Shown here: in pieces, positions 49,156-52,517 of the stretch
How positions within the stretch are numbered: the stretch's first letter is position 1
How the letters are laid out: every line of letters begins with the position of its first letter
Virus record (IMG/VR): IMGVR_UViG_3300043773_001180
Span: 1-53,067 of that record
Length of the DNA: 53,067 bases
Source: a virus
Strand: one strand, 5' to 3'
Notes under the pieces: generated by a model
Databases searched by the model: none
What the model saw: only the letters and a program-made list of their open reading frames with translations
Told to the model about the DNA's origin: nothing
Position numbers and translations under genes: made by a program

Positions 49156-49980
49156 TTAGTTTGTTTTTGTAATCATATCCATATAGTATTTGTAAGTTTG
49201 GTGTTGTTGGAATACTTGTTTAATTTCATTTAACGCTATCTCTGCCTCTCCTTCTGTTTGGAAACAATTACCAAGATTGTATCGGTCACGAAACATAGCA
49301 CAATTTTGAATAGTGGTTGACTGACGGATTCTACCGATTTCGTCGATAAACCAATAAGATTTACCTTCATTTGGTTTCCAACGGGGTGGTACATACGGGG
49401 TAGGAACGTTAATAACAATCGGTCTCCATACGTCTCCGTCTTTAAATGCATCAAACCAATTTATCAGATGAACTTCATTATCTTCTCCAACTACCCATAC
49501 ATCACCATCTTGAAATCGTTGAGAGTTATATCCATCGAATCCACACGGCAGTCTATCGGTTATCCAACCATCGTTATCATCCATAGGGATGAACGGTTTA
49601 ACCGACCCCGACCACGAGTCCTTTCTATTGTCGTTTGTGTTTTTCTGTCCTGTTTCCCGTCTATATGTCACACCATCATCAGATTCCGTAATTGCCCCTG
49701 CCATAAAAAATCCACCACAGATTCTAAGCCACGGTTCATCGTCCTCTACACCTTCTTCAATCCAAAAATGAAATCCACCAGAATGATAACTTCCCTTAAA
49801 TACCGTTTCTTGTAACGCTTCTTCCAACATAACCCTAAACTCGGATTCCGTAACCGAATCACCCGGTGTGTGCCACCATTTCCAACGAACCGCTTTCATT
49901 GCTGTTACACATCGTTCGACTTCAAAGTATTCTTTTATAGACTGGACTTGTTCTCTTAAAACTTCACTTCTACTTAACAT
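49156..49980 (-). CDS. Two-domain protein ending in an ITDRLP-type module
   Basis: A 274-residue protein from the ATG at 49980, which has GGAGGAG nine bases upstream; a TTG at 49998 is less likely. The N-terminal ~145 residues (MKAVRWKWWHTPG, FHFWIEEGVEDDEPWL) are a separate domain. The C-terminal half (GWITDRLPCGFDGY, RWKPNEGKSYWFIDEIGRIR, YNLGNCFQTEGEAEIA) is the same module as the two short proteins upstream. The W-x-T-DRLP plus GNCFxTxxEAE module is widespread in phage and prophage proteins of unknown function. An internal anti-host or recognition role is speculation. Confidence 0.75.
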   Translation of the reverse strand: MLSRSEVLREQVQSIKEYFEVERCVTAMKAVRWKWWHTPGDSVTESEFRVMLEEALQETVFKGSYHSGGFHFWIEEGVEDDEPWLRICGGFFMAGAITESDDGVTYRRETGQKNTNDNRKDSWSGSVKPFIPMDDNDGWITDRLPCGFDGYNSQRFQDGDVWVVGEDNEVHLINWFDAFKDGDVWRPIVINVPTPYVPPRWKPNEGKSYWFIDEIGRIRQSTTIQNCAMFRDRYNLGNCFQTEGEAEIALNEIKQVFQQHQTYKYYMDMITKTN

Positions 49981-49984
49981 AGAT

Positions 49985-50095
49985 TTACTCTCCTCCAAAT
50001 AAATTTATAAATGCAACCAAGAATTTGTACGCAACCCATATTGTTCCTACTAAAACAGACAACATGAGAAGAATTGAAAATAGTAGTGAAATCAT
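49985..50095 (-). CDS. Very small membrane protein (36 aa)
   Basis: The frame runs from ATG 50095 to TAA 49985: one hydrophobic segment (ISLLFSILLMLSVLVGTIWV) and a short tail. AAAGGA lies six to ten bases before the ATG. Its final codons supply the GGAGGAG ribosome site for the downstream gene, which supports it being part of the operon. Function unknown. Confidence 0.6.
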   Translation of the reverse strand: MISLLFSILLMLSVLVGTIWVAYKFLVAFINLFGGE

Positions 50096-50123
50096 TTTTG
50101 TTTTCCTTTTGTATTACTGATAC

Positions 50124-50177
50124 TTAATAATTAGACTCTTTAGGGTTCGGCAGCCTGTCGGTTATCCACTCACTCAT
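50124..50177 (-). pseudogene. Truncated third copy of the ITDRLP gene
   Basis: The ATG at 50177 opens MSEWITDRLPNPKESNY and stops at 50124. The first ten residues match the two intact copies upstream, and the ATG sits in the same AATGAGTGA overlap as in the intact pair. The sequence then departs, so this is the 5' stub of a lost or never-completed copy. It might still be translated. Confidence 0.75.
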
Positions 50178-50553
50178 TGTTCAGCTCCTTATGATAGTTT
50201 AGTAATGTCTCACGCACACGTCGCGCGGCTTCTTGGGCTTGGGCTTGGGTTTTGAAACAGTTGCCGAAGTCGTATCGTCTGAGGAAACGATATTCGTTAT
50301 CCGTAGCAATTAAACGATGCTCAAAGCCGGAGTCGGTTACATAATGGTATAGTTGCTCACTCTCAGGCTTCCACCGCTGCGGCTCTGTCTTGACGTAGGG
50401 TTTTGGCATTGCTATGTGCGTCCAAGGTTGTCCGTGCAAAACTGTACTATAATGTTGGTTTTTAAGTCCATCACATACATAGTAAACCCAAACCGTTTGA
50501 TTTACATCTCCGTCTTCTTTAGTCGGCAGTCTATCAGTTATCCACTCACTCAT
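50170..50553 (-). CDS. ITDRLP-type protein, copy 2
   Basis: A 127-residue protein (MSEWITDRLPTKEDG, RWKPESEQLYHYVTDSG, NCFKTQAQAQEAARRVRETL, LLNYHKELNNE). It is a paralog of the gene upstream, and both ends are nearly identical between them. The start ATG overlaps the preceding stop. Codons here are visibly richer in G and C than those of surrounding phage genes, which suggests later acquisition. Function unknown. Confidence 0.78.
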   Translation of the reverse strand: MSEWITDRLPTKEDGDVNQTVWVYYVCDGLKNQHYSTVLHGQPWTHIAMPKPYVKTEPQRWKPESEQLYHYVTDSGFEHRLIATDNEYRFLRRYDFGNCFKTQAQAQEAARRVRETLLNYHKELNNE

Positions 50554-50923
50554 TGTTCAGCTCCTTATGATAGTTAAGTAAAAGTTCACGCACTCGGCTC
50601 GCAGCTTCCTGTGCCTGAGCCTCTGTTTGAAAGCAGTTGCCAATTGCATACCTATCATGATCACCACTAGTGCCTAGCCATGCATTGCTGAACACGCAAT
50701 GCGATACGACTGAGAAGTATATCTCGTTGACATTCGGCTTCCACCGCTGCGGCTCGGGCTTGACGTAGGACGCGGGGATTTTTATTGGCATCCAAGGCAT
50801 ACCAAGTTTAATTTCATTACGTCTTCTTAAATTTGGCAAGCCGACTATTTCCTGATACCACACAAGACCTAGAAACCCATCTTCGTATTTCGGCAGCCTG
50901 TCGGTTATCCATTCTGTATTCAT
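50546..50923 (-). CDS. ITDRLP-type protein, copy 1
   Basis: A 125-residue protein starting at ATG 50923 with AAGGA upstream (a longer frame to 50962 runs into the attC-like element). It shares EWITDRLP, RWKPNVNEIYFSVVS, NCFQTEAQAQEAASRVRELL and the identical end NYHKELNNE with copy 2, while the middle diverges. Also relatively GC-rich. Tandem duplication with diversification of the centre is inferred. Confidence 0.78.
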   Translation of the reverse strand: MNTEWITDRLPKYEDGFLGLVWYQEIVGLPNLRRRNEIKLGMPWMPIKIPASYVKPEPQRWKPNVNEIYFSVVSHCVFSNAWLGTSGDHDRYAIGNCFQTEAQAQEAASRVRELLLNYHKELNNE

Positions 50924-50956
50924 GTTGTTAGTCCTTATTCTAAATTTAACGGCACA

Positions 50957-51046
50957 TAACAAGGGTTTTGCGTAATAGCCCTATCAAGTGTCGTGGTTAA
51001 TTTTAAGTTTCTACTAAGGGCTACTACGCAAAGCCCTGATACGTTA
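50957..51046. repeat. attC-like imperfect inverted repeat
   Basis: A 25-29 bp arm (AGGGTTTTGCGTAATAGCCC core) at 50957-50981 pairs with a second arm at 51018-51046 (AGGGCTTTGCGTAGTAGCCC in reverse complement) around a 36-base loop, flanked by TAAC. The two cores differ at two positions that remain G-T pairable in RNA or single-stranded DNA. The overall shape resembles integron attC sites and related Bacteroidota intergenic repeats; the strict RYYYAAC/GTTRRRY core is not matched exactly. Confidence 0.6.
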
Positions 51047-51505
51047 TAGCCAATAGCTACCATTCACGGTCAACACCGACTTGTATGAAGTTAACACTTT
51101 CCGAATAATAACCACTTGATTCTCCGTACCAACGAATATCTACATAGCCTTTTATCGTTGCTAATTTGTAAAATGTCCAAGTACAAGAACCCCAATCATT
51201 TGCTTCTTTGGTTTTTTTAATGTCTTCTTCGGAAGTAGGTTCGTAGTTTGAAACTTCTTCGGCTGTTAATATTGGTGTTCCGATTAAGTCATTCAAATCT
51301 CCGTTAATATCTTCAATTAAAACACTTTCACAGCAATCTTGTCCGTGATACATTTTATATTGTGTTCCATCGTCAACGATAAAAATTAATTCATCGCCAT
51401 TGTTTTTAATTTCGGTAAGTGTTTTACCCACTAAGTCTTTAAATTCTGCCATTGTATTTGTTTTTAAATTAAGTTTCTACTAATCAATCCGCTACTGGCT
51501 ATAAC
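51003..51505. mobile_element. Cassette-like insertion carrying one gene
   Basis: A 15-bp direct repeat, TTAAGTTTCTACTAA, occurs at 51003-51017 and 51469-51483 (466 bp apart). Just inside and outside lie inverted copies of a 15-mer: GTTATAGCCAATAGC at 51043-51057 and its near-complement GCTACTGGCTATAAC at 51491-51505. The single gene between them (51057-51452) starts and stops close to these ends. This is how a gene cassette or small mobile unit would look. No recombinase is visible. Confidence 0.5.
51057..51452 (-). CDS. DUF7448-like protein in cassette-like unit
   Basis: A 131-residue acidic protein: [58 protein letters not shown], then [20 protein letters not shown] and YYSESVNF. The G-D-D-G-T-Q-Y-x-M-Y-H-x-Q-D-C-C-E stretch is what I recall for DUF7448 proteins of phages and Bacteroidota; function is unknown. 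It has its own host-type promoter and a long leader, and is bounded by repeats, so it was probably acquired as a unit. Confidence 0.72.
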
Positions 51506-51568
51506 AGCAACCTTTCCATCACGAATTACTTTTTCCATAGTTTTGTTGTGTTATTGATTAACGATGTA

Positions 51569-52324: not shown

Positions 52325-52517
52325 TACCGGCCCTTTCTTGTCTTATGGGTAATTGTAGTCCACCACCAACAGAGTTCCCCACGGAGTCCAACACGGAGTT
52401 CCACACGGAATACTCCACGGAGATCAACACGGAGTTCCACACGGAGTTCCGCACGGAGTTATACATGGGGATCTCCACAGATTCCAAAATCTTATGTCTA
52501 ACATTCTCTAAGTTCAT
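52317..52517 (-). CDS. Tetrapeptide-repeat protein (xNSV repeats)
   Basis: A 66-residue protein. Residues ~19-50 are eight four-residue units: YNSV RNSV WNSV LISV EYSV then WNSV LDSV GNSV. The 12-bp DNA period (cacggagttcca-like) is clear at 52372-52470. I recall short xSV repeats in Bacteroidota proteins and phages, but no function. A regular four-residue period could form a beta solenoid or a stacked strand. It starts directly after the stop of the gene upstream (TAAATG). Confidence 0.72.
   Translation of the reverse strand: MNLENVRHKILESVEIPMYNSVRNSVWNSVLISVEYSVWNSVLDSVGNSVGGGLQLPIRQERAGNA

Follow-up and report, generated by a model that had tools for sequence, protein, structure and literature searches.

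Repeats around a DUF7448 gene in a Bacteroidota phage: the probable remnant of an integron-type cassette array

One small gene of a viral genome is flanked by both direct and inverted repeats and is followed by a hairpin, which raises the question of whether it entered this genome as a unit and, if so, which of the repeats mark its ends. The gene lies in IMG/VR record IMGVR_UViG_3300043773_001180, whose positions 1 to 53,067 are referred to here as the window. A preliminary description had read it as an integron-type single-gene cassette of the kind seen on Bacteroidota chromosomes, bounded by the direct repeats and carrying the hairpin at its 3' end. The window also encodes baseplate-wedge, primase, SbcC-like and thymidylate-synthase genes of phage families, and neither an integrase nor a complete array was found within it. 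On the minus strand, the locus reads GTTATAGCCAGTAGC, leader, DUF7448 gene, GCTATTGGCTATAAC, 82-nt hairpin, GTTATGTGCCGTT and the next open reading frame (ORF), and its parts are as follows.

51464..51538, minus strand: 24-codon ORF, of which the first 17 codons resemble the start of a 102-111 aa phage protein (MEKxIRDGKVAV)
51490..51505, minus strand: R' core site of the DUF7448 cassette, GTTATAGCCAGTAGCG, pairing over ~16 nt with R'' at 51043-51058
51469..51483, minus strand: second copy of the direct repeat, in the leader immediately upstream of the DUF7448 start codon; present in locus L004 and, with one change, in locus L003
51057..51452, minus strand: DUF7448 gene, 131 aa, cargo of the first cassette (PF24240, E 3e-31)
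51043..51058, minus strand: R'' inverse core site of the DUF7448 cassette, AGCTATTGGCTATAAC, assigned by core-site pairing
50961..51042, minus strand: attC-like hairpin, 82 nt between AAC and GTT, assigned by folding, near-identical copies and linkage to the downstream gene
51003..51017, minus strand: first copy of the direct repeat, part of the attC loop (minus strand TTAGTAGAAACTTAA) and conserved in the loop of other copies
50945..50960, minus strand: R' core site of the next (second) cassette, GTTATGTGCCGTTAAA, unchanged after the hairpin in most other copies
50546..50923, minus strand: cargo of the second cassette, ~125 aa counted from ATG, assigned from the ORF and repeats D2-D4

The inverted 15-mers noted earlier at the ends of the gene (51043-51057 and 51491-51505) are real and 93% complementary. 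They correspond to the two core sites of the DUF7448 gene, GTTATAGCC... and ...GGCTATAAC, which pair over ~16 bp; the one exception to this R'/R'' pairing is a conserved G.T at position 11. The R' site is identical to those of L003 and L004, where copies of the gene (97% and 93% identical) have the same core sites. Membership of the DUF7448 family, also proposed from the outset, is well supported by the PF24240 profile score of 108 bits, above the gathering cut-off of 27; to our knowledge, no function has been assigned to this family. The 15-bp direct repeat (TTAAGTTTCTACTAA) likewise exists as two exact copies 466 bp apart, but these copies do not mark the ends of a unit as had been supposed. 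Instead, they represent a motif that occurs in the attC loop and in the leader, and the leader copy is retained in L004 and L003 together with other hairpins. The DUF7448 copies in these two loci have one upstream hairpin in common and differ in their downstream hairpins, none of which is that of the window, and the gene still keeps its pair of core sites there. The leader (CAGTAGCGGATTGATTAG...AAACTT; 51464-51505) is also similar to long attCs of L051 and L079 in their left arm and loop, a likeness that is perhaps a relic of cassette formation.

The hairpin itself has arms at 51018-51037 and 50962-50981, with a 4-nt bulge on the 5' side of the minus strand. As described previously, it is imperfect, and it folds better than shuffled sequences on both strands, with -19.8 kcal/mol for the minus strand (z -3.8; none of 200 shuffles as good) and -18.5 kcal/mol for the plus strand (z -3.4; 1/200 as good). 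No match was found in Rfam. The search for further copies that had been recommended was productive: a 20-mer from the hairpin arm matched 56 viral stretches, and alignment placed a near-identical hairpin, including its loop, in 51 viral and 9 bacterial loci with unrelated flanking genes. Between these loci, the gene ahead of the hairpin differs, and the common DNA begins with the hairpin and ends at the AAC behind the next gene. This indicates that the hairpin moves together with its downstream gene. In L022, L023 and L051, for example, 326-338 bp are in common at 98.8-99.7% identity in different contexts, and the edges of the hairpin-plus-gene unit fall at the hairpin start and the AAC end. 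Judged by this linkage, the window hairpin belongs to the following 125-aa ORF and not to the DUF7448 unit, to which it had been assigned. The loci L083 and L084 are from a cassette array in a metagenome-assembled genome labelled Candidatus Nitrosotalea, an archaeon, which is probably a mis-binned phage or Bacteroidota contig.

Scanning of the loci yielded a common rule for a unit, in which ~16 nt of R' (GTT[A/G]N6G..) are complementary to R'' (..TN6[T/C]AAC) and position 11 is a G.T mismatch in the large majority of units. There were 177 such units in 616 kb of array loci, versus none in 510 kb of unrelated viral loci and two in shuffled sequence, and 81 tandem unit pairs in phage array loci, versus none in either the background, which comprised array flanks and unrelated viral loci, or shuffled sequence. 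Hairpins between tandem units are mostly ~82 or ~118 nt, and in phage units an attC-like hairpin of ~82 or 118 nt lies 5' of the gene on the coding strand. Several defining features of integrons were found in these arrays: each R'' is complementary to the R' of its own cassette, single-gene cassettes follow one another in tandem with an attC-like site for each (both in phage loci and in chromosomal arrays), and the attC forms an imperfect hairpin in which the extrahelical bases lie asymmetrically on one of the strands. Recombinase homologues that are more diverged (35-49% identity) were dropped as a negative control, as arrays are present there too. We favour the reading that these are integron-type cassettes, each with one gene between inverted core sites (GTT[A/G]N6G...TN6[T/C]AAC), which would be moved by a site-specific recombinase; together with the history proposed below for the window, this sequence-based reading is given a probability of roughly 0.8. 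Were the hairpin merely a transcription terminator or a 5' leader with coincidental repeats, its location between genes would be expected, as would the frequent presence of phage start codons inside long hairpins. Such a role is nevertheless highly unlikely given the paired core sites with their conserved G.T, the empty 510 kb background and the movement of whole units.

Units of this type are arranged in Bacteroidota genomes beside a tyrosine recombinase with a length of roughly 350-400 aa. In 13 loci, 70-106 bp separate the 3' end of the recombinase from the first cassette, the junction (ATATAAACnAG/TT[A/G]) forms an attI-like site, and no units were detected in 87 kb of sequence flanking the chromosomal arrays. 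Homologues of the recombinase (E below 1e-40) are present in 82 of 247 genomes sampled across the phylum. In alignments, the protein matches Xer recombinases as well as the two ends of VchIntIA, and it lacks the roughly 40-residue IntI insert, with 27 aa where VchIntIA has about 69 aa; the R-to-H spacing is about 91-92 aa in nearly all members in which it could be read. Absence of the IntI-specific additional domain counts against the integron-type reading, and the TIGR02249 score is below the cut-off. A TIGR02249 (IntI) search matches all 14 control genomes and was hence excluded as evidence. NCBIfam places the family in NF040815, 'site-specific tyrosine recombinase/integron integrase', and an attI-like site next to the integrase, where the first cassette joins, was found on chromosomes and in phages alike.

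Only 3 of the 41 hairpin-bearing viral records have a PF00589 recombinase, which also counts against the favoured reading, since most phage arrays would then need a recombinase from elsewhere. A search with the phage recombinase lineage identified 260 relatives in viral contigs, and units were present in 39 of 57 phage integrase loci checked. Almost all of these (110/113) are upstream of the integrase and on its strand, the last AAC precedes the integrase start codon by 51-54 bp in 22 loci, and most loci feature an attI-like site (AAC/TAnTATATGTA). Many integrase-less phage arrays end in an AAC/TAnnnTATAnnCGC-like sequence, with CG at the expected place in 52% versus 18% in the background. A quick tree separated phage from chromosomal integrases with 3 changes versus 32 in shuffles, with unsure placement of long-row branches, and the phage integrases thus appear to be a separate lineage. 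Terminase matches were obtained in 14/41 and 7/40 records, so a good part of these viral records, at least, are tailed phages. Among cultured phages, Polaribacter phage Leef_1 has three units upstream of its integrase, which together with a further AAC end ~55 bp before it, Polaribacter phage P12002L has four units, and Cellulophaga phage Ingeline has an integrase match and no units.

The association with recombinases also bears on whether the units could instead be a MITE or a single-stranded, HUH transposon-like element that a hairpin-recognising Y1 transposase moves. A subterminal hairpin at one end, a short conserved end motif and the lack of a visible target duplication are in keeping with such an element. 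This explanation is scarcely credible, however, as tyrosine recombinases stand at a fixed spacing beside the arrays in >30 loci and the matched inverted ends are gene-specific, unlike the fixed ends of transposons.

Phage and chromosomal units differ in polarity, for which the strand with the G.T pair served as the reference. Of 303 callable phage units, 297 have their gene on the folded attC strand and 6 on the opposite one, versus 3 and 67, respectively, of 70 chromosomal units; the samples were chosen differently and the loci are partly dependent, so these counts describe these sets and are not probabilities. Phage units found by site or DUF7448 (155 same strand, 4 opposite) agree with those found by integrase (142 same, 2 opposite), and the chromosomal sets comprise 44 opposite and 2 same, and 23 opposite and 1 same. 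Extra unpaired bases, mostly 3-4 nt, are on the same side in 74/74, 55/55 and 29/30 attCs, with phage and chromosomal orientation alike, and the orientation is therefore not dependent on the G.T rule alone. In addition, the G.T strand folds better with the core boxes (partly by construction) and mostly without them. Since phage genes are on the folded strand, the phage attC lies upstream of its gene, whereas an attC 3' of the gene, as in integrons, was found on chromosomes and not in phages. The original comparison with cassettes of Bacteroidota chromosomes thus holds for the kind of unit and fails for the coding strand relative to attC, which is the opposite one.

The predicted start codon falls inside the attC in 27/40 and 22/42 long phage attCs, versus 0/33 and 0/18 short ones. 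Long attCs in L061, L063 and L051 encode the start codon and the first codons, providing attC-encoded N-termini of cassette genes. We consider it rather probable that Bacteroidota phages own an integron lineage whose tyrosine recombinase is not an IntI and has the attI immediately upstream, whose cassettes are reversed and whose attC serves as a mobile 5' leader able to carry the start codon.

Under the favoured reading, a cassette would be excised as a circle, in which R'' and R' would pair as a long stem enclosing the hairpin. A recombinase of the phage family or of the host would cut the folded strand at the AAC/GTT core, and the cassette would be inserted at attI or at another attC. With the phage gene on the folded strand, the attC would travel upstream and could supply the leader of the gene. 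Phages may thereby swap small accessory genes, such as those for methyltransferases and DUF proteins, one by one. Alternatively, the genes could spread only by homologous recombination between phages, with the hairpin and its flanks as anchors and the hairpins themselves as relics or terminators. Many phage arrays without an integrase would fit this, as would a chimeric hairpin in the L050/L067:1098 region, whose fusion inside the loop (CTTGATAGGGC) suggests homologous exchange between attCs. Homologous recombination as the sole route is nonetheless unlikely, as the units end precisely at core sites, the paired N6 at either end is particular to each gene and the spacing to dedicated integrases and attI-like sites is constant. 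On chromosomes and in other phages alike, units of this kind stand in a row next to a tyrosine recombinase of XerA/IntI type and are preceded by an attI-like site.

What happened in the window can be read from its junctions. The DUF7448 unit meets the 17-codon phage-gene start exactly at the GTT of R' (codon 12 of the ORF). The 102-111 aa phage protein with a matching start is known from Erwinia and Vibrio phages (tblastn E 3e-4 in the window), and the remainder of this interrupted gene is absent from the window. The second cassette has no matching R'' nearby, and the start of its cargo recurs as two more partial tandem copies downstream. Missing R'', partial tandem copies and an interrupted phage gene together imply insertion followed by decay, with no intact array. 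One attC and two cassettes, the second incomplete, were found in the window, while a CALIN has at least two close attC sites and no integrase, an arrangement seen in many related viral loci. We accordingly regard the window as probably a degraded two-cassette remnant of an integron-type array inside a phage gene of a Bacteroidota phage, with the joint probability given above. Several observations in the window count against this. Both an integrase and a complete array are missing, and the DUF7448 unit has lost the upstream hairpin of its own. Contrary to what a plain hairpin-first unit predicts, its junction falls at R' instead of at the beginning of a hairpin. Related phages lacking exactly this segment, which the preliminary description had called for, were not found: the search for direct relatives of the window phage that might reveal an empty site gave a best relative of 36% identity, and none for the 280-aa neighbour.

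Integrons have chiefly been described as platforms of bacteria, with IntI as the defining enzyme, and Xer enzymes resolve dimers at dif. Chromosomal integrons (IntI/attI/attC) resemble the present arrays in their one-gene cassettes, an inverse core complementary to the core of the same cassette, a folded attC with an asymmetric bulge and an attI beside a tyrosine recombinase, and the homogeneous sites are reminiscent of Vibrio VCRs. Unlike chromosomal integrons, the recombinase here lacks the IntI additional domain, the R boxes pair over ~16 nt with a conserved G.T, and in phages the gene is on the folded strand, the attC is 5' of the gene and the array is upstream of the integrase. The array recombinase belongs to the XerA/XerC-like sequence family (NF040815) and differs from its other members in adjoining cassette arrays and attI-like sites, and DUF7448 (PF24240), a protein family, appears here as cassette cargo. 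The system can be regarded as a variant of the integron kind from which two classical features, the IntI domain and (in phages) the 3'-side attC, are missing.

Bacteroidota are listed among the phyla with integrons (PMC8618304), and integron cassettes in phages are already known: Qi et al. (2023; PMC9892861) report phage-borne integrons and CALINs in 21 phages, with attC-bearing cassettes that include those of Polaribacter phage P12002L with methyltransferase genes. In that study, IntI1 recombined some phage attCs, one of them from P12002L and not necessarily a unit counted here, and divergent attC directions in P12002L are mentioned (PMC9892861); the parts consulted describe no phage-specific integrase lineage, common core-site rule or reversed polarity. 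Our literature search, which was partial and excluded preprints, returned no description of a phage-owned recombinase lineage with an upstream attI, of reversed cassette polarity or of an enzyme that serves integron-type arrays while lacking the IntI insert.

That attI and attC arrays adjoin a recombinase lacking the insert is relevant to the questions of why the insert is needed and of how Xer enzymes gave rise to integrons, and the reversed, phage-owned version would give phages a new means of exchanging small genes, for example those for methyltransferases. If this is correct, some phage 'integrases' taken as signs of lysogeny would be cassette integrases, which puts in question the habit of calling phages temperate by an integrase gene alone. 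The integrase of Leef_1 was taken as a sign of a possible temperate life style in the isolation paper (PMC8776804). As Leef_1 and P12002L are cultured, the system is directly testable.

Other repeats were also apparent in the window. Three neighbouring minus-strand ORFs (49156-50962) share repeated segments (ITDRLP... and GNCFxT.AxA), and the second-cassette cargo is partly duplicated in tandem; a DUF551 protein in the Leef_1 array region (L334:5166-5366) has a start similar to these ORFs. At 52357-52493, a tandem 12-bp repeat (ACGGAGTTCCAC-like) of about ten copies encodes NSVxNSV-like repeats in a 66-aa minus-strand ORF. Positions 1-2000, where the GC content is above that of the rest of the window, feature long GSSGTSG-type repeats in a 1331-aa ORF, which look like a tail-fibre or collagen-like repeat.
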